A stretch of DNA of 64,000 bases. Source: Bacteroidota bacterium (GTDB taxonomy: Bacteria; Bacteroidota; Bacteroidia; Bacteroidales; FEN-979). A program made the translations under genes and the position numbers. Below, piece after piece: positions 1 to 21,959 of the stretch. The notes below the pieces were generated by a model, which was not told where the DNA came from, did no database searches, and saw only the letters and a program-made list of their open reading frames with translations. The number at the start of each line of letters is the position of its first letter. Within the stretch, counting starts at the first letter, position 1. The stretch lies in NCBI GenBank assembly GCA_026391835.1, contig JAPLDF010000062.1:1-64000 (forward strand), given 5' to 3'.

Positions 1-174
1 CAAAAAGCCATTCTCTCACAATATGATGATTTCATGCGACAGGTGAAACTATCTCCAATGGCTGAATATACGGATGTATGGAAGATTGATGACTCAGCCC
101 GGCCGGACAAAAAGAGACGTGGACCTGCTAAAAGTAAAGCCTGCAAAGACTGCCCGTATTTTAAACCATCATAA
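1..174 (+). CDS. C-terminal end of an unidentified protein (partial)
   Basis: An open frame enters from the left edge and ends at TAA 172-174, leaving 57 residues. The visible tail is hydrophilic and basic (RPDKKRRGPAKSKA), then KACKDCPYFKPS with a C-x2-C pair. The basic tail and cysteine pair could fit a nucleic-acid-binding protein, but no family is recognisable. It lies on the same strand as the accessory block and is probably its upstream member. Confidence 0.5.
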   Translation, partial: QKAILSQYDDFMRQVKLSPMAEYTDVWKIDDSARPDKKRRGPAKSKACKDCPYFKPS

Positions 175-701: not shown

Positions 702-999
702 CTTTTTCTTTGAAAGTGCAGGTCAAAGAAAAAGCTTAGCAAAAAGAAACCCCATTTGAGGCACCGGAAAATTAGAATTGGTTTTCCTTGGAAGCGGAGT
801 ATGTCTTACTTGAAATAGCTCTGAATTTACCTACATCGACTTTGGCCATGCTGAAGAGTGCAGCACCAGGCTTGAAACTGTCAAGAGCAAGCTGTTCTGT
901 GTATTCAGATTCAAAAGATAATCTGACCTACACTCCTGACATTATTCAATCGATCCGGTTCAACGCTTCGCGGTCAGAAAATTTCAAGTATTCACACAT
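702..999 (+). promoter_or_regulatory. Repeated structured leader, copy A
   Basis: First of four near-complete copies of a structured upstream element. It begins with an inverted repeat (GCTTTTTCTTTGA 701-713 with 723-735, 13 bp) followed by GCAAAAAGAAA. The distal part has nested stems: TGTCAAGAG 879-887 with CTCCTGACA 933-941 (one A·C mismatch), enclosing TCAGATT 905-911 with AATCTGA 920-926. CATTATTC and CGATCCGGT are conserved downstream. The outer stem and the GCCAGATGCC...GGGGCAGGGGC box near the start codon, present in copies B and C, are missing here. The distance from the first hairpin to the start codon is 298 nt. Confidence 0.75.
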
Positions 1000-1170
1000 A
1001 TGACAGCAATCGCCAGAGCAACCAGGGATCAGAACATTGAAGAAATTTCAATTGAACTTCTTGATCAGATTTATTATTCAGGGTATGTACAGGAAATGTC
1101 CCTCCTGGATCCTGCAAAGATTGAGTTTGAATTGGCTCAGATGGAGAGTCAGTTCTCAAAAAGAAATTAA
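1000..1170 (+). CDS. Small 56-aa protein of the leader-driven module
   Basis: ATG at 1000 opens a 56-codon frame ending with TAA at 1168-1170. The product starts MTAIARATRD and ends FSKRN. It is mostly polar, probably helical, with no cysteines and no membrane segment. I do not recognise a family. It is accepted as a gene because it sits exactly between a repeated leader and a textbook terminator starting 8 nt after its stop. Its ATG is at the same distance from the first hairpin as the radC and ardC starts. Long ORFs in other frames here are shadows. Confidence 0.65.
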   Translation: MTAIARATRDQNIEEISIELLDQIYYSGYVQEMSLLDPAKIEFELAQMESQFSKRN

Positions 1171-1178
1171 ACTTAACG

Positions 1179-1208
1179 ACAGGCAGTCTTCGGACTGCCT
1201 GTTTTTTT
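1179..1208 (+). terminator. Intrinsic terminator with TTCG tetraloop
   Basis: ACAGGCAGTC (1179-1188) and GACTGCCTGT (1193-1202) form a perfect 10-bp stem closed by the stable TTCG tetraloop and followed by a T run. It ends the 56-aa gene module and lies 22 nt before the first hairpin of the next leader. Confidence 0.9.
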
Positions 1209-1230
1209 ATGGTCGTAACTCCCGGGTCCG

Positions 1231-1525
1231 CTTTTTCTTTGATGGCACTGGGCAAAGAAAAAGATGGGCAAAAAGAAAGCCCTTGTGAGATGGTCTGGTT
1301 GTAGGAACCTCTCCGCTAAGAATTTATAAAGTTACCTGTATCGAATATGAACTGGTTCCAGGAACATCCACTTCGAAACTGTCAAGAGCATGTGAATGTA
1401 TTCAGATTCAAAGGAGAATCTGACCTACACTCTTGACATTATTCTCACCGATCCGGTATGGAAATCACAAATTCTTACCGGCGAGCCAGATGCCATAATA
1501 AGTCCCCGGGGCAGGGGCCAATCTA
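1231..1525 (+). promoter_or_regulatory. Repeated structured leader, copy B (radC)
   Basis: It starts with CTTTTTCTTTG 1231-1241 paired with 1253-1263 (11 bp), then GGGC-AAAAAGAAA-GCCC. The nested distal stems, from outside in, are: TAAGAATTT 1317-1325 with 1469-1477; ACTGGTTC 1351-1358 with GATCCGGT 1450-1457 (one mismatch, one wobble); TGTCAAGAG 1380-1388 with 1430-1438; TCAGATTC 1402-1409 with 1416-1423. The right arm of the third stem carries a perfect TTGACA, with TATGGA 18 nt further on. GCCAGATGCC and CCCCGGGGCAGGGGC follow, the latter ending 7 nt before the start codon. No Bacteroidota TAnnTTTG box is obvious. First hairpin to start codon is 295 nt. Confidence 0.8.
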
Positions 1526-2266
1526 TTGAAAAAATCATTTTTAAACACACCAACCGTTCTTGATCCGTTGACCTATTACAAACACGGCCTTCCCATGAAA
1601 CTCTGGGCCGAGGATGATCTGCCAAGTTACAAGCTGCTGATGAAGGGCACCTCCGGCATGTCTGATGCAGAACTGCTGAGCCTGGTCATCGGCACCGGCA
1701 TTGCAGGGGAGAATGCACTCGATATCGCCAAGACCTTGCTGATGGCCAGTGGGAACAACCTGGCTGACCTGTGGAAGTTCGGCTATCCGGAATTGCAGAA
1801 GATCAAAGGCATCGGGGAAGGTAGGGCACTGGCCATCGTTGCCATGTTCTGCCTTGCCAGACGCAGGAATGAATCTCAGGCTGTCAGCCGGACCAAGATC
1901 AGCTCTTCCCGGGATGCCTTTGAAATCTTTCAGTCTCAGATCGGGGATCTGCCGTATGAGGAATTCTGGATTCTGACATTGAACCGGGCAAACAAGGTTA
2001 TCAAGAAGATCAGAATTTCAGAGGGCGGGATATCCGGAACAGTGGTGGATCCGAAGAAGATATGGAAGCTTGCCATGGATAACCAGGCGTGCAACATCAT
2101 CCTGGGGCATAACCATCCATCCGGAACACCCTCCCCATCGGAAGCTGATAGCAAGATCACCAAGAAAATCGTAGATGGCGGCAAACTGCTTGAAATAGCA
2201 GTTCTGGACCATATCATTGTGGGCAATGACACCTACTATTCATTCGCTGATGAAGGATGTTTGTGA
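1526..2266 (+). CDS. radC: RadC-family JAB/MPN protein
   Basis: RadC-like protein of 246 aa, a family common on mobile elements; the molecular role is unsettled. The N-terminal helix-hairpin-helix part includes WAEDDLPSYKLL and IKGIGEGRALAI. The MPN domain carries the metal-binding signature HNHPSGTPSPSEAD near residues 195-208, with the expected His, His and Asp ligands. The TTG at 1526 is chosen because the conserved GGGGCAGGGGC box ends 7 nt before it, the same spacing as before the ATG of ardC. An ATG at 1595 would give the more usual RadC beginning (MKLWAEDD) and remains possible. It stands alone between a repeated leader and its own terminator. Confidence 0.9.
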   Translation: MKKSFLNTPTVLDPLTYYKHGLPMKLWAEDDLPSYKLLMKGTSGMSDAELLSLVIGTGIAGENALDIAKTLLMASGNNLADLWKFGYPELQKIKGIGEGRALAIVAMFCLARRRNESQAVSRTKISSSRDAFEIFQSQIGDLPYEEFWILTLNRANKVIKKIRISEGGISGTVVDPKKIWKLAMDNQACNIILGHNHPSGTPSPSEADSKITKKIVDGGKLLEIAVLDHIIVGNDTYYSFADEGCL

Positions 2267-2272
2267 GGGAAG

Positions 2273-2298
2273 GCCCCGGGAAACCGGGGCTTTTTTTT
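2273..2298 (+). terminator. Intrinsic terminator after radC
   Basis: GCCCCGG (2273-2279), a GAAA tetraloop and CCGGGGC (2284-2290) are followed by eight T. It closes the radC module 7 nt after the stop. The 2299-2455 stretch beyond it is AT-rich and has none of the leader motifs. Confidence 0.9.
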
Positions 2299-2455
2299 GG
2301 TCGAGGATTGAAAAGAGGTGATATATCTTGCTGGAATGAGAAATTTCAGGATAATATTGGAATTAACCTTTAATTTTACTGCTCAGACATCAATTTAACG
2401 CTTCCTCTATGGTCAAAATAGCTTTCACTTGGCTATAAGTTATATGCAAAGAAAT

Positions 2456-3061
2456 ATGAAATATCGAGTTCTTCTAGTATTTGTTTTTCTATTTCAATCA
2501 CTTTTATTTTGGGGGCAAGTCGATTCTAGTGCATCAAAATTACTTGATTCATTGAAAGTTGAAGACCAGAAATGGAGAAATTTATCCTCAAAAGTTTATA
2601 AAAATGAAATTGATACCATATCTATACAGGTAGTAATGAAGCGAGTTCGTGAAACTGACAGTTTGAATTATTTATTAATAAAACCGTTGTTTGACAAATT
2701 TGGATATTTAGGGAGTGATAAGGTTGGCATTCAAAGTTCGCATATTTTTTGGTTATTAGTCCAGCATGCTGATTTTCAACCTGATTTCCAAGAAAGTGTT
2801 TTAATGAAAATGAGAATAGAGGTAGATAAAGGAAATGCACCTATTAAAGACTATGCTTATCTTTATGATCGAGTTAAAGTAAACAACAGGCAATTACAAT
2901 TGTATGGAACTCAAATGACATTAGATTCATTAATAATGTCCTACAAACCAAAACCCGTATTTGATCCTGACAAACTAAATGAAAGAAGAAAGCAAGTTGG
3001 TTTATCCCCAATTGAAGATTATATACGGATTATGAATGAAAATTTTTTAAAAACGAAATAA
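2456..3061 (+). CDS. Secreted DUF6624-like protein
   Basis: About 201 aa, beginning with a Sec signal peptide (MKYRVLLVFVFLFQ, cleavage likely after FWGQ). The middle and C-terminal parts contain IFWLLVQHAD, FQPDFQ, LYDRV and QLYGTQ, which match my memory of DUF6624, a family of unknown function common in Bacteroidota. ATG 2456 is chosen because it starts directly at the signal peptide; TTG 2429 and ATG 2444 are in frame upstream. The gene is distinctly AT-rich compared with radC and ardC and lacks the repeated leader. It seems to have entered the block with the next two genes. Confidence 0.7.
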   Translation: MKYRVLLVFVFLFQSLLFWGQVDSSASKLLDSLKVEDQKWRNLSSKVYKNEIDTISIQVVMKRVRETDSLNYLLIKPLFDKFGYLGSDKVGIQSSHIFWLLVQHADFQPDFQESVLMKMRIEVDKGNAPIKDYAYLYDRVKVNNRQLQLYGTQMTLDSLIMSYKPKPVFDPDKLNERRKQVGLSPIEDYIRIMNENFLKTK

Positions 3062-3072
3062 ATGGCCTGCAG

Positions 3073-3666
3073 ATGAAACAGCCTAATTTATTTTTCGGAT
3101 TGTACTTAATATTTTTACTCCTGCTATTTGCAGGATGTAGAAAAAAAAATGAACCGACATATATCTCCGAGAAACTTAAATCATTTGCGGTCTTTCAGGT
3201 TGGAAGCTATTGGATTTATAAAAATGAAAAGACTGGGAACTTAGATAGTATCTTCATTTCAGAAGTTCCCCATTTCTTCTTCAATGGTAATGAAAACATA
3301 CCTCCATTTGTTCAAGAGTGTTCTATGAGGTATGGTGGTACAATAATTTCAGGTTCTGTAGTGTATCCTGAGAATGAAGAGTTGGTGTTTCAAAATGATC
3401 ATAGTGGTTCATGTATCCAGTTTTATACCCCAACTCCAGGGTCAAATGGGAGTTTTTCCAATATCAGTACGTTCGATTCATTAGAAATTAACAATAAATA
3501 TTATCACGAGGTAATTAATACCAAGAATAGATTTCAGTTCTCAAATGGTGATACATTAATTTATACATTCTTCATAGCTAAGTCTGTCGGTATCATCAAA
3601 TTAAATAAAAAGACAAATGATAGCGATACAACTTGGAGTTTACTCCGCAATCGCTCTGTTCAGTAA
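3073..3666 (+). CDS. Lipoprotein of unknown function
   Basis: A 197-aa protein with a lipoprotein signal sequence: a hydrophobic stretch ending LLFAGC, so Cys at about residue 22 would be lipidated. The mature part is beta-rich and contains VGSYWIYKNEKTGNLDSIFI, a pattern common in Bacteroidota surface lipoproteins, but I recognise no family. It starts 11 nt after the DUF6624-like gene and ends 9 nt before the restriction-modification gene, so the three may be co-transcribed. AT-rich like its neighbours. Confidence 0.7.
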   Translation: MKQPNLFFGLYLIFLLLLFAGCRKKNEPTYISEKLKSFAVFQVGSYWIYKNEKTGNLDSIFISEVPHFFFNGNENIPPFVQECSMRYGGTIISGSVVYPENEELVFQNDHSGSCIQFYTPTPGSNGSFSNISTFDSLEINNKYYHEVINTKNRFQFSNGDTLIYTFFIAKSVGIIKLNKKTNDSDTTWSLLRNRSVQ

Positions 3667-3675
3667 GAATTCCAT

Positions 3676-6060
3676 ATGAGCCTTTACGAAAAATTACAGA
3701 AAGCAACCAGCGAGGAAGATGTCAAAGACGCTTATATCAAAGCACTTGGCTTAAAGGAGTATCAAAAGAACCTGATTGATATTCAAACTAAAGAAATTTG
3801 GTTCGAAGCGAAGCAAAACGCAAAATTTTCGAGTTATGCGATGTTCACGCAATTAATGCACTACGTTCAGGATGCATTGAACAAAGGAGATTATATCCCG
3901 CCATTTTTAGCGGTCATTGATACTCAGAAAGCGGCCATTATGAAAAGTGAGGATGTATTGCCATTCCTTGCTAAAAAGACAATAAAATGGGGCAGGTCGG
4001 CCAGCAGTTACACGCAAGAGGCTCTGGATGCCATTTCTGCTCATATCGGGACACATTTTGTATCATTTAAAATTGAGACCCATGAGGATGAATTTATCAG
4101 CACGGTAAAAAATGCCATTCAAAAAGGCGATATCATCCGAACCCAAATTACACCGAGTAACCTCAAACAGGTCTTTGATAAATGGGTATTAATGATCGGG
4201 CGGGAAATCAAAGGCATTGCAGAAGAAGATTATGCTTTATTGTTTTTCGCAGATATAATGCATGATGGAACTGTGTCTACTCATGATAATCTGACCGCAG
4301 AACTGATGCATAAAAACAATGCTCCAGTTTTTCTCTTGGGAGGTAAAGTTTACGAATTAAGCAATAAAGAGGGATATCGACAATTTTGGGCGATCTATCA
4401 CAAACCTCCTAAAGCAGAGTATCGTAATTACTTGCTGGAACGAAGAGATAGCTTGATCCCTCTTGATGAGAGAAGTTTTAAAGGTGCTTTCTACACCCCT
4501 TTGGCTATAGTGGATAAGGCGTACGACAAACTCGCTGAAACCCTGGGTGAAAACTGGCAAAACAATTATATCGTCTGGGATATGTGCTGCGGGGTAGGTA
4601 ATTTAGAGGTCAAACACAGCAACCCACGTAACATCTATATGAGTACATTGGATCAGGCCGATGTTGATGTTATGAAAGCCACCAAAACATGCGTGGCCGC
4701 ACAACGGTTTCAATATGATTATTTGAACGACGACATATCTGACGATGGAACAATTGATTATGCCCTTACAAATAAGGTGCCTGAAAGTTTGCGCAAAGTA
4801 ATTGCGGATGGAAAAAAGATTTTAGTATTAATGAATCCTCCATATGCAGAATCTGGTGATGGTTTAGATAGTGGAAACAAAGAAGGTGTCGCTTCCACTA
4901 AAATTTCTAAACACATGCCAGATTATGGTTATGCAACACGTGAGTTGTTTACTCAATTTATTGCACGCATTGCCCAAGAGATTCCGAATGCAACGCTGGC
5001 TATGTTTAGCACAATGAAATATGTAAATGCACCTAATTTTGAGGAATTTAGAAGCATTTGGAGTGCAATTTATCTTGATGGATTCGTATTTCATAGCAAG
5101 GCATTTGAAGGTTTGAAAGGCGATTTTCCAATTGGGTTTTTAATATGGCTCACAAGGAATCAAAGTAAGATCAAAGAGAACATGAAGGAGGTTACGGTAG
5201 ATGTGTTGGATAAGAATGCAATGGCTATTGGATCCAAGAAGTTCTTCAATATTCCGAGTGACCAGTTTTTAAGCACTTGGTTTAAACGGCCACGCTCGAA
5301 CAAAACCGATGCCTTACCACTCAAAAACGCGATATCACCAACAACCAGCACAAAAGATGTTCGGGGTACAAAATGGGCGGATGGTGCAATTGGCGGCATG
5401 ATTTGCGGAAAGAACGATTTACAGCACGCAGCTACCCAAACAGCCCTTCTATCTTCAGGATATTGCAGTGCAGGTGGATATTTTGTAACTCCAGAAAATC
5501 TTTGGCAGACAGCTGTCTTGTTTTCGGTTCGAAGGCTAATAAAGCCTACCTGGCTCAATGATCGCGATCAGTTTTTACAACCTACTGAGCCTTTACCTGA
5601 TGATTTTAAAATTGATTGCCTAGTTTGGATGTTGTTTAACGGCAGCAATCTCACAGCCAGCGCCAATGATCTTGAATGGAATGGTAAAAAATGGTCAATC
5701 GTAAATCATTTTATTCCCTTCACAGAAACAGAACTGAATGCACCTGATCGTTTTGAGTCTGATTTCATGGTCAGATACTTATTAGATAAATCGTTTTCAA
5801 ACGAAGCAAATCAGGTTTTGATGGCTGGAAAAGCATTGTGGCAAGCCTATTTTGAACACATAGATGTCAGGGCCGTAAGAGATGAATTTAAGTTGAACCG
5901 TCCAGATGTAGGATGGTATCAGGTTAGGAGAGCCTTACAGGCTCGTAATGTTAGTGGAGATTTCCCTCCAGTAAATTTTAAAACATTTGAAAATGTTTAT
6001 AAAATTTTGACTGAAAAATTACGACCACAAGTATATAGCCTGGGTTTTTTACGAGTTTAA
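3676..6060 (+). CDS. Single-chain restriction-modification enzyme (N6-adenine methyltransferase with N-terminal nuclease-like domain)
   Basis: A 794-aa protein. Residues about 35-46 read D-x8-EAK, the shape of a PD-(D/E)xK nuclease site. A helical linker and GAFYTP (about 270-276, methyltransferase motif X) come next. The AdoMet site DMCCGVGN (about 301-308, motif I) and the catalytic NPPY of N6-adenine methyltransferases (about 386-389, motif IV) follow. The C-terminal 250 residues may recognise the target. This order suggests a type IIG-like enzyme that both cuts and methylates, though it is shorter than the common ~1000-aa members. No separate nuclease or specificity gene is nearby. If the EAK motif is not a nuclease site, it would be a solitary methyltransferase. 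It lies between radC and ardC. Confidence 0.8.
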   Translation: MSLYEKLQKATSEEDVKDAYIKALGLKEYQKNLIDIQTKEIWFEAKQNAKFSSYAMFTQLMHYVQDALNKGDYIPPFLAVIDTQKAAIMKSEDVLPFLAKKTIKWGRSASSYTQEALDAISAHIGTHFVSFKIETHEDEFISTVKNAIQKGDIIRTQITPSNLKQVFDKWVLMIGREIKGIAEEDYALLFFADIMHDGTVSTHDNLTAELMHKNNAPVFLLGGKVYELSNKEGYRQFWAIYHKPPKAEYRNYLLERRDSLIPLDERSFKGAFYTPLAIVDKAYDKLAETLGENWQNNYIVWDMCCGVGNLEVKHSNPRNIYMSTLDQADVDVMKATKTCVAAQRFQYDYLNDDISDDGTIDYALTNKVPESLRKVIADGKKILVLMNPPYAESGDGLDSGNKEGVASTKISKHMPDYGYATRELFTQFIARIAQEIPNATLAMFSTMKYVNAPNFEEFRSIWSAIYLDGFVFHSKAFEGLKGDFPIGFLIWLTRNQSKIKENMKEVTVDVLDKNAMAIGSKKFFNIPSDQFLSTWFKRPRSNKTDALPLKNAISPTTSTKDVRGTKWADGAIGGMICGKNDLQHAATQTALLSSGYCSAGGYFVTPENLWQTAVLFSVRRLIKPTWLNDRDQFLQPTEPLPDDFKIDCLVWMLFNGSNLTASANDLEWNGKKWSIVNHFIPFTETELNAPDRFESDFMVRYLLDKSFSNEANQVLMAGKALWQAYFEHIDVRAVRDEFKLNRPDVGWYQVRRALQARNVSGDFPPVNFKTFENVYKILTEKLRPQVYSLGFLRV

Positions 6061-6517
6061 CGGGGGGGGATTTTGAAGCGTAAATTTCTTTCCGGCATTG
6101 GCAATAAAAGTATTGTTTAGTGTGAAAGTTGACTTTTGGTATTTCTGCTGGCATTGCTATTCCATCGGTCCAAACAGTTTCCATGCTGATAGAGTAACAT
6201 CCAGACGATTATTTCACGTCAAAATATTAATAGTCTCCATCGTGTAATGGGGTTCGATATCATATCAGTATTCCCCCAACTTTCCTGATTTATTCGCTAT
6301 TGGTCCATTTCCAGTGCATTACCGGTTTGTTTGTCTGACAGAGTTCAGGTATTAATTATTTGCTAAGTTATTATCTCATTCCAGGGTACAGTTTCACTCA
6401 TTCAAGGATTTTCCCGGCATATCCTCGGGTAAGTCTCCGGTATTCCAGTTCCTCCTTGAGTGCCCCTCCGTGAGATTAATGACACTTGCACATAATTTAA
6501 CCCTAAAAAACTCAGTC
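6061..6517 (+). other. Gene-free stretch before the SSB-like gene
   Basis: No convincing gene. A run of eight G (6062-6069) follows the methyltransferase stop directly. Since the stop precedes it, slippage there would not extend the protein. The repeated leader's motifs are absent, so the SSB-like gene has a different upstream region, possibly because the AT-rich insertion replaced the original one. TTGCACATAATTTAA near 6486-6500 is a weak promoter candidate. Confidence 0.4.
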
Positions 6518-6838
6518 ATGAAAACTTACACGAAAATCTACATCGGGAAAGGTAAAAAAGTTGCGAATCTGGACATCATCAAAGTTAGCTTCAACCTGAC
6601 AGTAATTACAGAGCTTACCCACGAATTCAAAGGAGAACAATACTTATCTTTCGAAGTAGCCAAAATGAAAGAACCCGATCAGTTTGAAAACACTCATACA
6701 GTTTATGTAAACAAGCTTGTGGAAGAAGAAGCATCCACGGTAGCTGAACCTTCAACCCCTTCAAAGAAATCGCTCAAAACCAAGAAAACTGCATCCCCTG
6801 CACCGAAGCCGGATCCGACAGACGAAATTCCCTTCTAA
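6518..6838 (+). CDS. Small protein with SSB-like acidic tail
   Basis: About 106 aa. The N-terminal ~70 residues are predicted beta-rich (KTYTKIYIGKGKKV, DIIKVSFNLTVI, EQYLSFEVAKMK). A low-complexity Pro/Lys/Ala/Thr linker and the terminal PTDEIPF follow. A flexible linker ending in D-[DE]-I-P-F is the signature of single-stranded-DNA-binding proteins, whose tail recruits replication and repair enzymes. The core does not look like canonical SSB, so this is an SSB-like protein by tail, not a confirmed orthologue. ATG 6518 is preferred to the upstream in-frame start at 6470 because the fold begins there. A terminator and the next leader follow. Confidence 0.7.
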   Translation: MKTYTKIYIGKGKKVANLDIIKVSFNLTVITELTHEFKGEQYLSFEVAKMKEPDQFENTHTVYVNKLVEEEASTVAEPSTPSKKSLKTKKTASPAPKPDPTDEIPF

Positions 6839-6858
6839 TCCACACTCCCTTCCATGAA

Positions 6859-6888
6859 AGAGTCCTGAAACCAGGGCTCTTTTTTTTT
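6859..6888 (+). terminator. Intrinsic terminator after the SSB-like gene
   Basis: AGAGTCCTG (6859-6867), loop AAAC and CAGGGCTCT (6872-6880) form a 9-bp stem with one wobble, followed by nine T. It lies 20 nt before the first hairpin of leader copy C. Confidence 0.9.
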
Positions 6889-6908
6889 GTCACAACTTCT
6901 CCGGTCCG

Positions 6909-7202
6909 CTTTTTCTTTGATGATGCAGGGCAAAGAAAAAGCTTAGCAAAAAGAAAGCCCACTTGAGTTGATCTGGTTGTAGGAGTCTCTAACTAAGAAT
7001 TTATAAAGTTACCTACATCGAATCAGAACTGGTTCCCGACACATCTGCCCGAAACTGTCAAGGGCTAAGTTTCATGTTTTCAGATTCAAAATAGAATCTG
7101 ACCAACACCCTTGACATTATTCGTTCGATCCGGTACAAGATTACAAATTCTTACTGGCGAGCCAGATGCCAAAACAAGTCCCCGGGGCAGGGGCATACAC
7201 GC
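6909..7202 (+). promoter_or_regulatory. Repeated structured leader, copy C (ardC)
   Basis: The copy most similar to B. The first hairpin GCTTTTTCTTTG 6908-6919 pairs with 6931-6942 (12 bp). Nested stems: TAAGAATTT 6994-7002 with 7145-7153; ACTGGTTC 7028-7035 with GATCCGGT 7127-7134; TGTCAAGGG 7056-7064 with CCCTTGACA 7108-7116; TCAGATTC 7080-7087 with 7094-7101. The third stem differs from B by a paired A-to-G/T-to-C change that keeps pairing. TTGACA (7111-7116) is followed 17 nt later by TACAAG. The CCCCGGGGCAGGGGC box ends 8 nt before the ATG. First hairpin to start codon is 294 nt. Confidence 0.8.
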
Positions 7203-8105
7203 ATGAATACCGCAGAAATTTACGCTTCCATCACCGAGAAAATCATCGCTAACCTGGAGACATCCGGAAGCTGGACAAAGCTTTGGCAGGTTCCCTCTCC
7301 GGTGAGTTTGATGGGCTACTACTACAAGGGTATCAATCGTCTTATTCTATCCACCGATCCATTCAAAAGCCGTGTTTATGGCACATTTGCACAGATCAGA
7401 TCCAATGGTGGAATGGTTCGCAAGGGCGAAAAGGCCACCATCATTGTCTTCTGGAAGAAAAGCGTAGGGGAGGATAAGGACACGAAGGAGAAGAAGAACC
7501 TTTTCCTGCTGAAGTACTATCACATTTTCAATTCCGAACAAGCTGACTTTGATGAAATAGGTGTTGAAAAGGTTGCCAAAATGAATAACCTGGTCCAGGA
7601 AAAGGTTAATTCAGAGTATCTGGAAGCAGATGCAATCGTTCAGGGTTATCCCAATCCACCTTACATACACTATTCAGACAAGGAAGACAGGGCCTGTTAT
7701 TCCCCGATGGCCGATCAGATCACCATACCTCAGATGCGCTACTTCGTTTCTTCTGATGCTTACTACCGCGTGCTTTTCCATGAAATGTGTCACGCGACCG
7801 GACACCCGAAAAGGCTGGACCGGTACGATGGCATGTCAAACAGTTTCGGGGATCTCCAATATTCCAAAGAAGAACTTGTAGCGGAGCTTGGTTCTGCCTT
7901 CCTGGGTGGCATCGCTAACCTGGATCCCGATATCCGCAATTCAGCAGCCTACATCCGGGGATGGGCGTCAGCCCTGAGAGATAACCAGAAGTGGATCATG
8001 TGGGCTGCTGCCCGTGCAGAGAAGGCCGCAAATTATATCCTTGGTAAAGAACAGAAGATCGTCGATGAAGAAGGTATTCTGGTACCCGAAGAAATTGAAG
8101 CTTAA
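7203..8105 (+). CDS. ardC: ArdC-family antirestriction protein (zincin metallopeptidase)
   Basis: A 300-aa protein of the ArdC family. The N-terminal ssDNA-binding-like domain (about 1-130, DUF1738 type) includes YYKGINRLIL and GGMVRKGEKATIIVFWKK. The C-terminal zinc metallopeptidase domain has HEMCHATGH near residues 193-201, with two His ligands and the catalytic Glu, and EELVAELG near 223-230 supplying the third ligand. ArdC proteins are known from leading regions of conjugative plasmids, where they protect incoming DNA from restriction. That role is inferred here by family. The ATG lies 8 nt after the conserved GGGGC of leader C. No terminator follows: the sequence runs within 20 nt into the truncated leader D. 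Confidence 0.9.
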   Translation: MNTAEIYASITEKIIANLETSGSWTKLWQVPSPVSLMGYYYKGINRLILSTDPFKSRVYGTFAQIRSNGGMVRKGEKATIIVFWKKSVGEDKDTKEKKNLFLLKYYHIFNSEQADFDEIGVEKVAKMNNLVQEKVNSEYLEADAIVQGYPNPPYIHYSDKEDRACYSPMADQITIPQMRYFVSSDAYYRVLFHEMCHATGHPKRLDRYDGMSNSFGDLQYSKEELVAELGSAFLGGIANLDPDIRNSAAYIRGWASALRDNQKWIMWAAARAEKAANYILGKEQKIVDEEGILVPEEIEA

Positions 8106-8120
8106 CAATCTCATTTTATA

Positions 8121-8152
8121 AACCGGCGTGCCAGATGCCAACATAAGTCCCC
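8121..8152 (+). promoter_or_regulatory. Left fragment of leader copy D, interrupted by the IS
   Basis: AACCGGCGTGCCAGATGCC followed by CATAAGTCCCC matches the start-proximal end of leaders B and C. The first hairpin and nested stems are missing because the ardC end abuts the fragment. The right part, AGGGCAGGGGC, resumes at 9871-9881, just before the ATG of the zinc-finger gene. The break falls at the CCCC/GGGG centre of the CCCCGGGGCAGGGGC box. Confidence 0.7.
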
Positions 8153-8241
8153 AAGGCCCTATGTTTGTAAAATGTAGCACAAGTCTGGAAATTTATTAGT
8201 TTTAAGCTACCACAGTTTATAACCTTTAAATAACCAGACTT

Positions 8242-9321
8242 ATGCAAACACAAAGTAACAAAATTGATTTCAATGGCCAGAACATTTATGTTGGCATTGA
8301 TGTACATCTTAAAAGTTGGAAGGTTACAATCATGACTGAAAGACTTCCTTTCAAAACGTTTTCCCAAGACCCCAATCCGGAGGTTTTGCATCATTATTTG
8401 ACAAGGAACTTCCCAAACGGGATCTACCATTCGGCTTATGAAGCCGGGTTTTGCGGATATTGGATCCACAATAAATTTTCAGCGTTAGGAATAAACTCTA
8501 TTGTTGTTAACCCTGCAGACATTCCCACAACCGATAAAGAAAAAGTTCAGAAAGCTGATAAAAGGGACAGCCAGAAAATAGCAAAGGCCTTACGCAGCGG
8601 CGATCTGAAGGGCATTCATGTATTGGCATCAAAAACACTTGAGGACAGATGCCTGGTGCGTACCCGGGCAACAATTGTCCAGGATCTCACCCGGAACAAG
8701 AATCGAATAAAATCATTCTTATACTTTCATGGAATTGAGATGCCTGAAAAATTTAAACTAATGCAACACCATTGGTCCAAAAGGTTTGTGGAATGGCTCA
8801 GAAGTATTGAAATGTCAGAGCAAAGTGGTAAAAAATCGCTCACTCTAATTATTGATGAGGCAGAACACTTAAGGTTGATCATATTGCAGGCAACGAGAGG
8901 GATCAGGGAGTTATCCGAAACTGAACAATATGCAGACCAGGTTCGATTGCTGCGAGGAATACCCGGGATAGGTTTGTTGACTGCCATGATCATATTGACA
9001 GAACTTGAGTCGGTAAATCGATTTGAAAGCTTCGATAAATTATGCAGTTTCATTGGTTTAATCCCGTCAACGCATTCAAGTGGAGAGAAGGAAAACATTG
9101 GAGAAATCACCCACAGGGGAAATGGTTTTCTCAGAGGGGCACTGGTTGAGAGTTCCTGGATTGCAGCAAGATTAGACCTGGCGCTGAATAAATCGTATCA
9201 TGACTATTGTAAGCGCATGGAACCAAATAAAGCAATTATAAGGATTGCAAGAAAATTATTAAACAGGATCAGGTTCGTGCTAAAAAACAATCAGCCATAT
9301 GTATGCTCTGTTGTAAAATGA
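8242..9321 (+). CDS. IS110-family transposase
   Basis: A 359-aa DEDD recombinase. The N-terminal RuvC-like domain shows YVGIDVHLKSW (Asp20), YEAGFCGYW (Glu66) and KADKRDSQKIAKAL (Asp105 and Asp108). The C-terminal domain has LRGIPGIGLLTAMII (HhH-like), GLIPSTHSSGE with the presumed catalytic Ser near 278-280, and GEITHRGNGFLRGALVE. Length and motif order are intact, so it looks functional. Such enzymes work with an RNA encoded in the element's own non-coding end, which guides target and donor choice. Confidence 0.93.
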   Translation: MQTQSNKIDFNGQNIYVGIDVHLKSWKVTIMTERLPFKTFSQDPNPEVLHHYLTRNFPNGIYHSAYEAGFCGYWIHNKFSALGINSIVVNPADIPTTDKEKVQKADKRDSQKIAKALRSGDLKGIHVLASKTLEDRCLVRTRATIVQDLTRNKNRIKSFLYFHGIEMPEKFKLMQHHWSKRFVEWLRSIEMSEQSGKKSLTLIIDEAEHLRLIILQATRGIRELSETEQYADQVRLLRGIPGIGLLTAMIILTELESVNRFESFDKLCSFIGLIPSTHSSGEKENIGEITHRGNGFLRGALVESSWIAARLDLALNKSYHDYCKRMEPNKAIIRIARKLLNRIRFVLKNNQPYVCSVVK

Positions 9322-9349
9322 AACTATGTGCTGTGGAAAAACACATTCA

Positions 9350-9559
9350 GTGAGACCGCTACCCCGGACTACAGTTCTAACTTTTGGAATCTGTTAACTT
9401 AAGGCTGCGGCTCACTTTCTTTATAAGAAAAAAATATTAATAGCATGAGCGTTATCTGTTTATACAAAACTAAATACTGTAAAAACATCTTCTGTAAGAC
9501 TGCTACCCCTGCCTGCAGTATTGAATTTTAATATCTGCTACTCCAAGGCTGCGGCTTAC
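9350..9559 (+). ncRNA. Candidate bridge/seekRNA region: two related 66-nt hairpins
   Basis: Two segments of equal length, 9350-9415 and 9494-9559, share one layout. The lower stems are GTGAG·A·CCGC with GCGG-CTCAC, and GTAAG·A·CTGC with GCGG-CTTAC; the G-C to A-T change is compensated. The upper stems are ACAG with CTGT (9371-9374, 9391-9394) and GCAG with CTGC (9515-9518, 9535-9538), again compensated, each with a bulged T on the 3' arm. The internal loops are 11 nt (5' side) and 12 nt (3' side) in both. Paired internal loops in the non-coding end of an IS110-type element fit the target- and donor-binding loops of a guide RNA. The transcript ends are not known. Confidence 0.6.
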
Positions 9560-9888
9560 ATTCTATAAAAAATAAAGCGAGGCAATACAGCCCGGATTAT
9601 AAACCGGTTCTGTTGATAGAAGGATGTTTTTATAGATTTAGTTCATTGAAATATCAGACATGGTAACTAAAGATGAGTTTATTGAGCCATAGGTGACAGC
9701 GAAAACAAAAAAGAGCCTCTCTTATCAAGAAGCTCTCATTGGTGTTTTCACCGTCATAAATCATATTGCTGGTGAGTTGCTCTCCAGCAGAGCTCACTTC
9801 CTCTTCAGATTTACCCTGTAAAGATAAAAAAAGAAAAAATAAATGGCCGGACTCTTGTTTTACAACATAGAGGGCAGGGGCTTTTTTT

Positions 9889-10119
9889 ATGAGTTATACA
9901 AAACAATCAGGAGATCCCAGGCAGATGACTTCACGGTTTGCCTCTTCTTGTCATACCTGTGGCAAGCCAGTTAAAAAAGGTGAAGAGATCATCTACTGGC
10001 CGAATGGAAAAAAGGCTGGCCACCTCGCTTGTGATCAGGCAGACTTCGCCCGATCCATTGAATCGTTCCAGGATGAAGAATATTACAGAGAATTCAACGG
10101 TCGGGGGGATTACCGATGA
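9889..10119 (+). CDS. Small zinc-finger protein
   Basis: A 76-aa protein with a likely zinc site C-x2-C-x23-H-x2-C (CHTCGKPV ... GHLACD) in its middle and an acidic/aromatic C-terminus. The spacing resembles treble-clef or ribbon modules; the specific function is unknown. The ATG lies 7 nt after AGGGCAGGGGC, the right half of leader D, so the gene originally belonged to a leader module. It overlaps the next gene by 4 nt (ATGA), indicating translational coupling. The IS directly upstream may have cut it off from its promoter. Confidence 0.75.
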   Translation: MSYTKQSGDPRQMTSRFASSCHTCGKPVKKGEEIIYWPNGKKAGHLACDQADFARSIESFQDEEYYREFNGRGDYR

Positions 10120-10523
10120 AGGACTTCGTTTACATTGACGAGGTTCCTGTAGAAGAACCTTGTGCACAGGTCGGCACAGAACACTACTACCATCTGGCAA
10201 TGATTGAAATTGCAGCTCACAGACACCAGTTGCTACGTCAACATGGTCATCCTCCTGATGGTTCATTCTTCAGGATCCATCCAAACACTCATGATGCCGG
10301 GACGTACTACACGCTCAATTTCGTCTTTGATGATGAGATTGAATCCCATATCGCCTATGCCTACCTGATGGAAAATTGTGCCATGAAATGGGATGCAGAA
10401 GCGCTGATTGAAATCATAGAGGCTGATCCGCACTACTTCGAACTTGTTGAACAATCGAACATAACCAAGTCACCAAGGCTTAATGCGTTTGTTCAACAGG
10501 TGATGAAGATCATGAATTCATAA
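10116..10523 (+). CDS. Hypothetical 135-aa accessory protein
   Basis: Starts in an ATGA overlap with the zinc-finger gene, so the two are coupled. The product is acidic and His-rich near the N-terminus (EHYYHLAMIEIAAHRHQLLRQ), with FDDEIESHIAYAYL in the middle and a helical C-terminus (LNAFVQQVMKIM). It has no signal peptide or membrane segment. I do not recognise a family. Cytosolic and part of a three-gene set shared with the 64-aa gene. Confidence 0.7.
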   Translation: MKDFVYIDEVPVEEPCAQVGTEHYYHLAMIEIAAHRHQLLRQHGHPPDGSFFRIHPNTHDAGTYYTLNFVFDDEIESHIAYAYLMENCAMKWDAEALIEIIEADPHYFELVEQSNITKSPRLNAFVQQVMKIMNS

Positions 10524-10564
10524 GCCAATGTTCAACTATCGTTAACCTTCCAAACTTATAAACC

Positions 10565-10759
10565 ATGCGACTTGTAAAATTAATATCCACGCCTGGCAAG
10601 GCAAGAGTGGCTTTTGTCAATCCCAAATATGTTGTTTCGGTTGAACCCCGGGACGATGGAGGTTGCTTTATCACTGCACTTGGGCCGACAGTCATAAAGG
10701 TGTTCTCTGACCACCGCAGTGCATCGACTATTGTGGCTTTGCTGTCAAACAGGGATTAA
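10565..10759 (+). CDS. Small beta-rich protein (FlbD-like pattern)
   Basis: A 64-aa protein, MRLVKLISTPGKARVAFVNPKYVVSVEP, then GGCFITALGPTVIKVF. The pattern of a basic strand, a VNP turn and a second strand resembles small FlbD/YlzI-like beta proteins, but no flagellar genes are in the window and the match is only by shape. It lies 41 nt after the 135-aa gene and 6 nt before a terminator, so it is probably the last gene of the three-gene unit. Confidence 0.65.
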   Translation: MRLVKLISTPGKARVAFVNPKYVVSVEPRDDGGCFITALGPTVIKVFSDHRSASTIVALLSNRD

Positions 10760-10765
10760 CAACTG

Positions 10766-10793
10766 GACCGGGGGCTTTGCCTCCGGTCTTTTT
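10766..10793 (+). terminator. Intrinsic terminator of the zinc-finger operon
   Basis: GACCGGGGGC (10766-10775), TTT loop and GCCTCCGGTC (10779-10788) form a 10-bp stem with one wobble, followed by TTTTT. Leader E begins 74 nt downstream. In between lies a further 8-bp inverted repeat, TACCAACC with GGTTGGTA (10821-10860 region). Confidence 0.9.
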
Positions 10794-10867
10794 CTATGGT
10801 CGTTCCTCCCTGGCATGGAATACCAACCTGCTAAAGGACTTTCTTCATCCTGGTTGGTAGCAGCAAC

Positions 10868-11159
10868 CTTTTTCTTTATGGGAGTAACGGTAAAGAAAAA
10901 GATTGATCAAAAAGAAAGCCGTCAAAATCAGATGGGCTGTTACTCAAAATTTGATGCGAAGGTAAACTCATGAAAATATCTGTCTCTAAATGGGGCTGAA
11001 TGGCGCTTCATGGGTGGTCTCTTTCAGATTTTTGAAGGTAAAAATCTGACCCTACCATTTGTTCCAGAATTTTCATTCCGTTTTTTGATGAGCATAAATT
11101 TTATTTAACCAGGCTGTGCCAGATGCCTAAATAAGTCTTCAGGGCAGGAGCGAAACACA
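10868..11159 (+). promoter_or_regulatory. Repeated structured leader, copy E (diverged)
   Basis: The most diverged copy, with the layout kept. The first hairpin is CTTTTTCTTTA 10868-10878 with TAAAGAAAAAG 10891-10901; the closing pair changed from G-C to A-T on both arms. GATCAAAAAGAAAGCC follows. Nested stems: AAAATTT 10936-10942 with 11096-11102; TGAAAAT 10971-10977 with ATTTTCA 11069-11075; ATGGGTGG 11010-11017 with CCTACCAT 11051-11058 (6 of 8 pairs); TCAGATTTTT 11024-11033 with AAAAATCTGA 11040-11049 (10 bp, loop GAAGGT). TGCCAGATGCC and AGGGCAGGAGC end 8 nt before the ATG. First hairpin to start codon is 292 nt. Confidence 0.75.
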
Positions 11160-11621
11160 ATGTCAAAGAATACCACAACACTGAAGCCGACAAACGGAAA
11201 TTCAAAGAACGCTGACGTAAGTGATGCAACTGTTGTTGCCGCTGAGCAGATTATCGCCGAAGTTGTCGCTGAATCAGCAAAACCGGTGCTGAACATTTTA
11301 CCGGAGGTTGCAGCTGCGGTGATCCCAGAAGTCAAACCTGAACCGGCTCCCAGGAAGGAGATGACCATGATGGAGAAGATCCTAAAGGTTGAAAATCTCC
11401 AGCTGGTTGTCGAAAAGAGGGCCAAACTTGTTCAGACACGCAGCGAACTTGACCGTTTTCAGACTTCTTCCAATGACTTCAACTGCTCAATGAGGCTGAA
11501 CGATTCAGACGGGAATGTATTCACCACAAGCTTTACCCCAGGGGTTAAGAAAGTGGTTGAATTTCTCCGGCAGGCATTTGATGAGAGCATTGAAGATGTT
11601 GAAAAGAAGATCACCTTCTGA
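11160..11621 (+). CDS. Alanine-rich accessory protein of unknown function
   Basis: A 153-aa protein in two parts. A low-complexity N-terminus (about 1-70, rich in Ala/Val/Glu/Pro, ending PEPAPRKE) is followed by a helical C-terminal domain starting MTMMEKILKVENLQLVVEKR and ending VVEFLRQAFDESIEDVEKKI. Short beta strands (CSMRLNDSDGNVFTTSF) lie in between. A disordered arm plus compact domain is common among small element-borne proteins; I do not know this family. It has its own leader (AGGAGC Shine-Dalgarno-like, 8 nt before ATG) and its own terminator. It is the last + strand accessory gene. Confidence 0.75.
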   Translation: MSKNTTTLKPTNGNSKNADVSDATVVAAEQIIAEVVAESAKPVLNILPEVAAAVIPEVKPEPAPRKEMTMMEKILKVENLQLVVEKRAKLVQTRSELDRFQTSSNDFNCSMRLNDSDGNVFTTSFTPGVKKVVEFLRQAFDESIEDVEKKITF

Positions 11622-11627
11622 GGCTTC

Positions 11628-11811: not shown

Positions 11812-13374
11812 TTATTTGCTTCCAGCACCTTCCTGCAACTTTTGCAAGACATCATCGAGGTTAAAGGATGCTGGTTTTTGTCTTGGCGGGAAATCTTTAA
11901 ATGTCATGATAAATTGACTGACGACCGCCTGAGACGGTACAAGTAAAAATGCATGATCAAGCATCCAGTCGTAATAAGTATTTGAAGTAACATCTGCCAT
12001 TTCATAAGGATCAGTACGCAGATTATAGATATTTGGTATCCTTAGCGGAACAAACGGTTCCTGCCATATTTGCATGGTTCCTTTAACCCTTTGTTCCATG
12101 AAGACCAATTTCCAATTATCATACCTCACTGCCACCAGCTGACCATCATCGTTAAAATAGAAAAATGATTCACGAGGATCTTTGGTTGTTTGTCCGGTAA
12201 GTAAAGGAAGCATATTGTAACCGTCAAGATGTGCTTTAAACGTTCGATTGTCAACCGTGTAGCCTGTTAGAAGTTTTTCGGTGACATCAGGAACTCCGGC
12301 GGCTGCAAGCAAAGTTGGTAACATGTCCAGGTGAGAGATGATATCGTTGCAAACAGTGCCGGCTTTGATGTGACCTGGCCAACTAATTAGGGCAGGAACT
12401 CTGTATGCACCTTCCCAGTTGGTGTTTTTTTCACTGCGGAATGGTGTAGTACCAGCATCCGGCCAACTATTTTCATGCGGGCCATTATCGGTGCTATACA
12501 TTATGATTGTATTATCCGAAATGCCAAGTTTCTCGATCATGTCCAAGATCAGACCCACATTTTTATCATGGTCGATCATAGCATCATGATATTCACTCTG
12601 CCACCGGCCCGACTGGCCCATGCTCTCGGGTTTGGCATGGGTCCGGAAGTGCATGTGGGTGAAGTTTACCCAAAGAAATACAGGCTTACCGGCTTTCACC
12701 TGCTTTTCCATAAAAGCTGCACCATAAGCTGCAATTGTATCATCAATTGTTTCCATTCGCTTTTTGGTAAGGGGACCAGTATTTACAATTTTCTGGGTTC
12801 CATCAGACATAGCCCAACTATGCATTACCCCGCGTGGTCCAAATTTCTCCCTGAACTCAGGGAAATCCTTTGCGGGTGGATAATCTCTCAATTCTGGTTC
12901 TTCTTCGGCATTAAGATGGTAAAGATTGCCGAAGAACTCATCAAATCCATGGTTTGTCGGTAGATACTCATCCCGATCCCCCAAGTGGTTTTTCCCAAAT
13001 TGACCAGTAGCATATCCCTGTCCTTTCAACAATTCTGCGATGGTTGGGTCCTCCTTTTGTAAACCAACAGCAGCACCCGGCAATCCTACCTTTGTTAAAC
13101 CTGTACGCAAACCGCATTGACCTGTGATAAATGAAGCTCGTCCAGCTGTGCAACTTTGTTCGGCATAATAATCAGTGAACATCATTCCAGCTTTGGCTAC
13201 CCGGTCAATATTAGGTGTCTGATAACCCAAGAGCCCGTGCGTGTATGCACTTACATTCGACTGTCCGATGTCATCACCCCAGATGATGATGATGTTTGGT
13301 TTGTTATTTGATTTCTGCCCAAATGCTACTCCTATTAGAAAGAGGAAAAGAAACATCAATTTCATTTTTTTCAT
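11812..13374 (-). CDS. Secreted Cys-type sulfatase 1
   Basis: A 520-aa sulfatase, hydrolysing sulfate esters after export. The signal peptide spans about 1-20 (MKKMKLMFLFLFLIGVAFGQ). The metal-binding start IIIIWGDDIGQ gives the Asp pair. Cys75 in SCTAGRASF is the residue matured to formylglycine; the motif is C-x-A-x-R instead of the usual C-x-P-x-R. GKNHLGD, HMHFRTH and STDNGPHENSW supply further ligands. It needs a formylglycine-generating or anaerobic sulfatase-maturating enzyme encoded elsewhere. Substrate unknown; the sulfatase/adhesin context suggests sulfated polysaccharide. It is a paralogue of the second sulfatase here. A 365-nt gap with a terminator separates it from the 2715-aa protein gene, so it is probably transcribed separately. 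Confidence 0.9.
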   Translation of the reverse strand: MKKMKLMFLFLFLIGVAFGQKSNNKPNIIIIWGDDIGQSNVSAYTHGLLGYQTPNIDRVAKAGMMFTDYYAEQSCTAGRASFITGQCGLRTGLTKVGLPGAAVGLQKEDPTIAELLKGQGYATGQFGKNHLGDRDEYLPTNHGFDEFFGNLYHLNAEEEPELRDYPPAKDFPEFREKFGPRGVMHSWAMSDGTQKIVNTGPLTKKRMETIDDTIAAYGAAFMEKQVKAGKPVFLWVNFTHMHFRTHAKPESMGQSGRWQSEYHDAMIDHDKNVGLILDMIEKLGISDNTIIMYSTDNGPHENSWPDAGTTPFRSEKNTNWEGAYRVPALISWPGHIKAGTVCNDIISHLDMLPTLLAAAGVPDVTEKLLTGYTVDNRTFKAHLDGYNMLPLLTGQTTKDPRESFFYFNDDGQLVAVRYDNWKLVFMEQRVKGTMQIWQEPFVPLRIPNIYNLRTDPYEMADVTSNTYYDWMLDHAFLLVPSQAVVSQFIMTFKDFPPRQKPASFNLDDVLQKLQEGAGSK

Positions 13375-21887: not shown

Positions 21888-21959
21888 GATCTCAAATTTT
21901 GGTGTTGTACATAAATCTATTGTCAATCGAATTATTGAAATACATTCTTCCAATGGATT

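Follow-up and report, generated by a model that had tools for sequence, protein, structure and literature searches.

A folded single strand of DNA can rebuild a promoter that reads towards the gene beside it, a logic described for the Frpo and ssi elements of conjugative plasmids (F plasmid, ColIb-P9) in the two accounts drawn on here (PMC9849209, PMC11541004). The first of these describes single-stranded DNA (ssDNA) promoters from proteobacterial plasmids (PMC9849209), and the second, a survey of leading regions, used Frpo homology and an E. coli consensus and never has the string "Bacteroid" in its main text (PMC11541004). Among open-access full texts, no report of ssDNA promoters or of a kissing module in Bacteroidota was found. 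Here we examine structured leaders that precede radC, ardC and further genes in a stretch of 64 000 nt (C34:1-64000, hereafter the window) from Bacteroidota bacterium GCA_026391835.1, an assembly of 86 contigs, and propose with moderate confidence, from sequence comparison, that the leader serves to express the establishment genes of mobile elements in Bacteroidales and works as a cassette with two stages.

In the first stage, the single-stranded template strand would fold into a long hairpin whose gene-distal arm would act as the non-template strand. The promoter on this arm would be of the sigma-ABfr type, its -7 box (TAnCTTTG) placed in an internal bubble and, for some leaders, a TGAC at -33 placed in the stem. 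From the base of the stem, RNA polymerase would run onto the template strand of the gene. In duplex DNA this box faces away from the gene, which would hence be off. In the second stage, the predicted mRNA would begin shortly before a module made up of a hairpin pair whose loops kiss. This module most likely sets the translation start, either as an aid to the ribosome or as the target of a regulator. Like Frpo and ssi, as far as the accounts cited above describe them, the leader is a noncoding hairpin 5' of genes of leading-region type (anti-restriction, SSB-type) with predicted single-strand promoter boxes, the template of the gene would be the transferred strand, and there are several copies per element. 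Unlike them, it has boxes of Bacteroidota type (TAnCTTTG and TGAC instead of TATAAT and TTGACA), an RNA module follows the hairpin, it is also found in tailed-phage-type DNA, and its promoter activity is a prediction.

Two further described systems bear comparison. The radC RNA motif (RF01754) occurs in the context of radC-type genes. It resembles the leaders in being a presumed cis-regulatory structure and differs in being listed for Proteobacteria in the source used (PMC2864571). The same source describes STAXI, pseudoknots found close to genes for SSB, antirestriction, topoisomerase and integrase, for which its authors discuss ssDNA versus RNA, and which, unlike the leaders, are tandem pseudoknot repeats with UUCG loops (PMC2864571). 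No Rfam 15 family, RF01754 and STAXI included, matched the leaders of the window or of 10 related loci at the gathering threshold. As for translation, initiation in Bacteroidota is described as proceeding without a Shine-Dalgarno sequence, the start region being tuned by local sequence and structure, with structure mostly inhibitory (PMC6847099), whereas the module is a conserved structure at a fixed place 5' of the start codon.

Window leaders and the 3' kissing-hairpin module

The + strand carries all four leaders, with starts at 702, 1231, 6909 and 10868, as a first-pass annotation had reported, and the distances that it gave from leader start to start codon were reproduced (298 nt for a gene encoding 56 aa, with its start codon at 1000; 295 nt for radC, TTG at 1526; 294 nt for ardC, 7203; 292 nt for a gene encoding 153 aa, 11160). 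That annotation regarded all four as near-complete copies of a single unit. The leader of the 56-aa gene (700-999, +) has a 5' pseudoknot and a long hairpin and is without the 3' kissing module, and the last approximately 40 nt of the leader are a separate RNA module that also occurs alone between operon genes. The leaders of radC, ardC (6907-7202, +) and the 153-aa gene (10866-11159, +) have pseudoknot, hairpin and module.

The module consists of two hairpins with kissing loops and ends 7-9 nt 5' of the start codon. It was sought with R1, a covariance model of 65 positions built from 60 sequences, which covers the 3' 65 nt of the leader only. Over 73 loci, R1 gave 170 matches (E up to 0.001), 159 of them distinct and located in 70 loci, and the start codon lies 11-13 nt after GGGCAG in 143 of the 154 modules followed by an open reading frame (ORF); five modules have no ORF. 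In the window, modules lie at 1480-1518 (+) 5' of radC (R1 match 1462-1526, 69.7 bits, supported by covariation), within the R1 match 7138-7202 5' of ardC, and within 11095-11159 5' of the 153-aa gene.

The structure was examined in an alignment of the best 150 R1 matches, which gave 139 distinct rows. Helix A is GGC/GCC, helix B is G(U)CNNN/NNNGC, with five pairs of which four covary (GC/AU; CG/UA/GC; GC/CG/AU/UA/UG; CG/AU/UA/GC), and the kissing pair GCC/GGC is present in 137/137 rows, counting one double change to ACC/GGU (L148). R1 was built with four of the helix-B pairs, which hence lean towards the model, and without helix A, the kiss and the fifth helix-B pair, which changes from G-C to A-U in 22 rows. 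Taken together, the 11 pairs are formed in 98.4 % of cells, with 152 double-changed cells and a covariation score reached by 0/500 shuffles, and slid controls were 12-46 % paired. Helix A is the weakest (94.9 % paired), its departures being due in part to an extra base, GGCTGNGCC. Helix B and the kiss, read on the sense strand, contain 17 G.U and 2 A.C mismatches, the pattern expected of RNA. A simple UGCC-GGCA pseudoknot, the first structure considered for the 3' end, was ruled out by variants that show helix A (GGC/GCC) and the kiss (GCC/GGC). An extra hairpin inside loop A was seen in L046 (6334-7312), L066 (890), L068 (2193 and 6215) and L140 (9809).

Consecutive modules are often closely packed. 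Only 13-91 nt separate the stop codon from the end of the next GGGCAG in 30 of the 81 pairs, and among these 41-44 nt is frequent, equal to the module plus 6-9 nt; the remaining pairs are at 174-466 nt (23/81), farther apart (26/81), or have a module overlapping the preceding ORF (2/81). Gaps of 13-91 nt are too short for the hairpin domain and the module therefore does not need it. Because it fills operon gaps at a fixed distance from the start codon, the module most likely acts in mRNA, at the start of translation; its structure rests on covariation, and its function we infer from this placement. A bolder version, which we consider possible yet doubtful, would make the module a ribosome-recruitment element resembling an internal ribosome entry site, with which phages and conjugative elements of Bacteroidales initiate translation in the absence of Shine-Dalgarno signals. 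It would be coupled to a Bacteroidota ssDNA promoter that tailed phages, too, have acquired and that in them acts on DNA in cruciform or replicating state.

A pattern made from the last 30 nt matched viral contigs at 13 stretches, a number that rose to 30 when the pattern was shortened, and GTDB species genomes at 47. The latter are titled Bacteroidales, Prolixibacteraceae or other Bacteroidota, the exceptions being one Oceanicaulis and one Ignavibacteriales metagenome-assembled genome, possibly through misbinning.

The hairpin from which the leader distances had been measured is an H-type pseudoknot, with stem 1 formed by CTTTTTCTTTG/CAAAGAAAAAG and a second stem that runs from the stem-1 loop to beyond an A-rich mirror repeat. 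It was found by a scan in 36 leaders, and the second stem covaries over all 36 (GGA/TCC, GGG/CCC, GGT/ACC, CCGG/CCGG, TGGC/GCCA), forming 106 pairs against 85.4 in swaps (reached in 0/5000), with at least 3 pairs in 29 leaders and 1-2 in the other 7. In the radC leader, the pseudoknot spans 1229-1284 (+) and the second stem is GGG/CCC.

The hairpin domain and its proposed reversed promoter box

Many modules are preceded by a conserved block, ACTCAAATT....GCAAAG[GT]TA, the start of which pairs with the stretch just before helix A. The arms, the fold and the -33 element were examined in 59 distinct leaders picked for a box-like block. Cognate P1 arms are more complementary than swapped ones (14.6 against 11.6; 0/2000 permutations), the arm helices are often quite unlike one another, as in TTTATGAC/GTCATAAA and AATTTGAGC/GCTCAAATT, and P1 was predicted in 33/59 leaders against 25/172 with swapped 3' ends. 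An automatic search for long-range helices in 124 upstream regions, in which true leaders were mixed with others, rose little above shuffles (16.5 against 15.0). For radC, the predicted ssDNA hairpin promoter occupies 1318-1476 (-), with P1 arms at 1318-1325/1469-1476 and P2 arms at 1381-1388/1430-1437.

The 3' part of the block, GCAAAG[GT]TA, is the reverse complement of TA[AC]CTTTGC, a form of the Bacteroidota -7 box, which is given as TAnnTTTG and as TAHHTTTG with G at -5 in the sources used (PMC7366714, PMC6847099). Among 95 free leaders, taken without selection for the box, TAnCTTTG is present on the strand reading away from the gene in 55 (2.5 expected) and a -33/-7 pair on the minus strand in 18 (1.4 expected), and none has TAnnTTTG directed towards the gene (9.6 expected). 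GTCA, the complement of the -33 TGAC, lies 26-28 nt from the box start in 22 of the 59 leaders, and the predicted +1 is a purine in 49/59, though this is partly built in by the choice of block. The predicted RNA start falls approximately 6-11 nt before helix A in the 32 leaders with a clear partner. The first-pass annotation had taken a TTGACA held in a stem as fitting an ssDNA promoter; this TTGACA sits in the arm other than the predicted non-template strand.

The template strand folds well (mean z -3.66; 44/59 below -2) and is the more stable of the two strands in 50/59 leaders and the less stable in 7. The mean difference between template and sense folds is -2.10 against -1.04 in shuffles, so that half of it is explained, and with composition controlled the sign is kept in 38/59 (Wilcoxon p=1.6e-4, a value made optimistic by relatedness). 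Pair probability is 0.21-0.33 in the -7 box and mostly 0.5-0.8 in the flanking arms, and the box, lying in an internal bubble of the modelled fold, may thus represent a pre-opened -7.

Folding is also strong on the sense strand of the hairpin (mean -26.2; template -28.3), the mismatch counts are compatible with a sense-strand fold, and the 3' module behaves like RNA, all of which would suit a leader that is in its entirety a structured 5' untranslated region, riboswitch- or attenuator-like, transcribed from an ordinary upstream promoter. We nevertheless consider this unlikely. A sense-strand terminator lies upstream of 59/92 free leaders (0.8 expected), compared with 6 on the other strand and 11/59 for operon-like modules, so that free leaders need a promoter of their own; the hairpin domain would not fit into operon gaps of 13-91 nt; the template strand gives the more stable hairpin; and the sense box is absent from all 95 free leaders, albeit in a test of low sensitivity. 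Less likely again is that the reversed box serves as an ordinary promoter on duplex DNA, making an antisense or primer RNA leftward, and that the gene's own promoter has gone unrecognised. On duplex DNA, the box and the -33 element do read leftward, but among the 40 loci with two or more modules none is mixed-strand, meaning that no array gene lies in the leftward direction, and both the conserved complementarity and the module are on the gene side.

Host elements and relaxases

In the source genome, a blastn search with the radC leader found 13 pieces, every one on C34 or on a second contig, C63, and R1 gave 8 strong matches confined to the arrays of these two contigs, the next match having E=0.57. 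The C63 array has leaders at 26084, 26661, 33879 and 36273 and a 3' piece at 35095, and homologous pieces stand in the same order in both arrays. This kept order speaks against a folded single-strand recombination site of the attC kind that shuffles one-gene cassettes, which we hold to be very improbable: gene units in a single orientation and a hairpin whose bottom strand folds better would fit, but the sites lie 5' of the genes, not 3', and the module and promoter box fit expression, no integron integrase having been sought. A REP-like or dispersed repeat without a role in expression, which the first-pass annotation had offered as an alternative, is barely credible since, despite several copies per genome and a common 5' palindrome, the distance to the start codon is fixed (143/154), the copies of each locus share a strand, changes are compensated and the source genome has copies in two arrays only.

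The C63 array is probably inside a prophage. Frames on this contig match a primase (phrog_1139), a head maturation protease (phrog_53, E=1.4e-50) and, at 53010, an integrase (phrog_216, E=1.3e-44); a large terminase gene (phrog_2, E=8.2e-8; L015:4037-5554) lies immediately 5' of the array, and a portal-like protein 3' of it matches weakly (phrog_11226, E=1e-4). Several frames of the prophage region found nothing in Pfam. At the start of the window (1-173, +) is the end of a frame in the small-terminase position, the edge of what appears to be a decayed prophage. Positions 19-113 match C63:23937-24028 (blastn), the translation agrees, and the C63 frame lies just 5' of the large terminase gene; it had no PHROG match and no family was assigned to it. 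The similarity between window and C63 stops at 11626, directly 3' of the 153-aa gene. As a terminase-adjacent frame stands at one end and the similarity stops at the other, the set is read as the remnant of a decayed prophage, and the host element in the window is probably this and not a visible integrative and conjugative element (ICE). PF02534 and PF03432 had no match in the source genome, other conjugation families not having been searched.

For the proposed link to transfer regions, R1 and the relaxase family PF03432 were mapped together in the nine genomes behind ten hand-picked loci. Five of these (G685-G688 and G692) contain PF03432 and hold 21 module clusters, of which 6 lie within 15 kb of a relaxase gene, where we estimate that approximately 0.7 would be expected (27 matches in 24.1 Mb). 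Five of the six (G685:C52, G685:C11, G686:C101, G686:C107 and G687:C42) are on the strand of the relaxase gene and are transcribed towards it, and clusters farther away in the relaxase-bearing genomes point in both directions. PF03432 was also found in 4 of 20 genomes of the order with good R1 matches. Arrays in G179 and G216 lie 10 and 7 kb from the relaxase gene and are transcribed towards it, and in G020 and G109 the relaxase gene is on a contig other than that of the array.

In four of the five relaxase-directed arrays the order is array, primase-like gene, NikA/MobC-like gene, relaxase and YWFCY/TraG coupling protein, the families having been checked in L159 and the other arrays assigned by like sequence. 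In L163, a gene of the 153-aa type (11183-11536) with a module adjoins the MobC-like and relaxase genes, upstream of the mobilisation genes. The SSB-like and zinc-finger-like proteins of the window share 47 % and 40 % identity with their L159 relatives. Given these shared relatives and leaders, phage-type and mobilisation-linked arrays have genes, leaders and module in common, and the phage arrays, including the remnant in the window, are probably leading-region-type islands shared with conjugative elements. In viral contigs, the arrays are flanked by phage families (tape measure, terminase, DUF6712), and nothing there matched an exact pattern made from one leader of the relaxase type. L159 has an inverted repeat, CGGCAAGAT...ATCTTGCCG, at 12570-12650 between the primase-like and NikA-like genes, a candidate origin of transfer (oriT) recognised by eye.

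A number of observations weigh against the two-stage cassette. The strict box is missing from 40/95 free leaders, and the boxes in the window are off consensus (TAACTTTA for radC and ardC, TACCTTCG on the minus strand for the 153-aa gene), the last base of the radC box (1334-1327, -) departing from TAnnTTTG. The reversed box is also found in 14/61 operon-like modules (1.3 expected), a class defined by a nearby open frame and evidently contaminated, so that the split into free and operonic is not clean. Sense TAHHTTTG was present in only 16/108 genes without a module (9.8 expected), making the missing sense box weak evidence. Mismatches in the hairpin number 12 A.C and 5 G.T in the sense fold and 9 A.C and 7 G.T in the template fold, counts that do not decide between the strands, and the leaders are related by descent, rendering p values optimistic. 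The near array G685:C9 points away from its relaxase gene, the other 15 of the 21 arrays are not near one, and the four genomes without a PF03432 match hold 15 more. The stretches surrounding ardC in four Cytophagales plasmids have neither an R1 match nor a reversed box. Finally, phage-type DNA, the setting of both the window array and the C63 array, is expected to enter as duplex. The earlier suggestion of an ssDNA-activated promoter in or near transfer regions thus survives in part: arm covariation, the reversed -7 box and the arrays transcribed towards relaxase genes favour it, while the boxes and phage-type setting of the window copies, and the many arrays away from relaxase genes, do not.

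Genes behind the modules and wider meaning

A Pfam search with 77 proteins encoded 3' of modules, dissimilar ones chosen by script, found RadC/JAB (9), ArdcN (9), MPTase-PolyVal (5), DUF6943 (3) and DUF6573, SymE and DnaJ (2 each). In the window, radC (1526-2266, +) matches PF04002 (E=2.1e-41) and ardC (7203-8105, +) matches PF08401 and PF18818. The 153-aa gene (11160-11621, +), a relative of the relaxase-adjoining gene of L163, belongs to a family common 3' of the module. Its product is predicted by AlphaFold to form a helix, a beta hairpin and a helix with a disordered N-terminus (mean pLDDT 67.7); the predicted fold had no significant PDB match (best E 0.25, prefoldin) and the protein no tblastn match in the phage collection. 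The zinc-finger-like gene (9889-10119, +), named by eye and without a Pfam match, is the one related to L159:7521-7727 in a relaxase-linked array. Its module is split into a 5' part (8122-8152, +; R1 match 8107-8165) and a 3' part (9871-9888, +). An insertion of the IS110 family (8158-9870), with an IS110-type transposase gene at 8242-9321, interrupts the conserved module. The split piece was not a complete leader: its intact counterpart at C63:35095-35143 is a 3' module alone, directly 3' of ardC.

The SSB-like gene (6518) had no R1 match, and the fold upstream of it did not reach significance (z -1.5). A variable cargo slot, with different genes in each copy, separates radC from the SSB-like gene (window 2300-6280, C63 27740-33250, L022 2740-7800); on L022 the slot lies 5' of ardC. 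The cargo in the window includes a protein of 794 aa, likely a methylase, which has an NPPY motif and no match in Pfam. At 1203-1216, 2293-2305 and 10789-10804, ATGGTCGT or GGTCG, stretches that resemble each other, come after the T run of a terminator, and some related loci have similar stretches. A frame of 2737 aa with repeated domains (13740-21953, -) has a C-terminal segment that we take to resemble a type IX secretion signal.

Within the order, R1 matched 49/295 genomes at E up to 0.01, 18 of them, the source genome included, below 1e-8; matches at E 1e-4 to 0.01 are chance-like and were not counted. In a sample of the phylum, 1/395 genomes matched at 1e-6, namely the source genome. The radC leader had no blastn match in the phage collection or in 72,556 plasmid records. 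Two Flavo-1 RNAs (RF01705) lie in or beside the module array of L140 (10552-10637 and 13504-13589, +), on the strand opposite to it.

Absent from Rfam 15 and covarying with unusual clarity at a constant position 5' of start codons, the kissing module may define an RNA family of its own, in a phylum that does not use Shine-Dalgarno signals. If there is indeed a Bacteroidota-type ssDNA promoter with sigma boxes of its own, the principle would extend to a dominant phylum of the gut, and elements of Bacteroidota would have a route to express anti-restriction genes on entry, offering a testable handle on lateral transfer.

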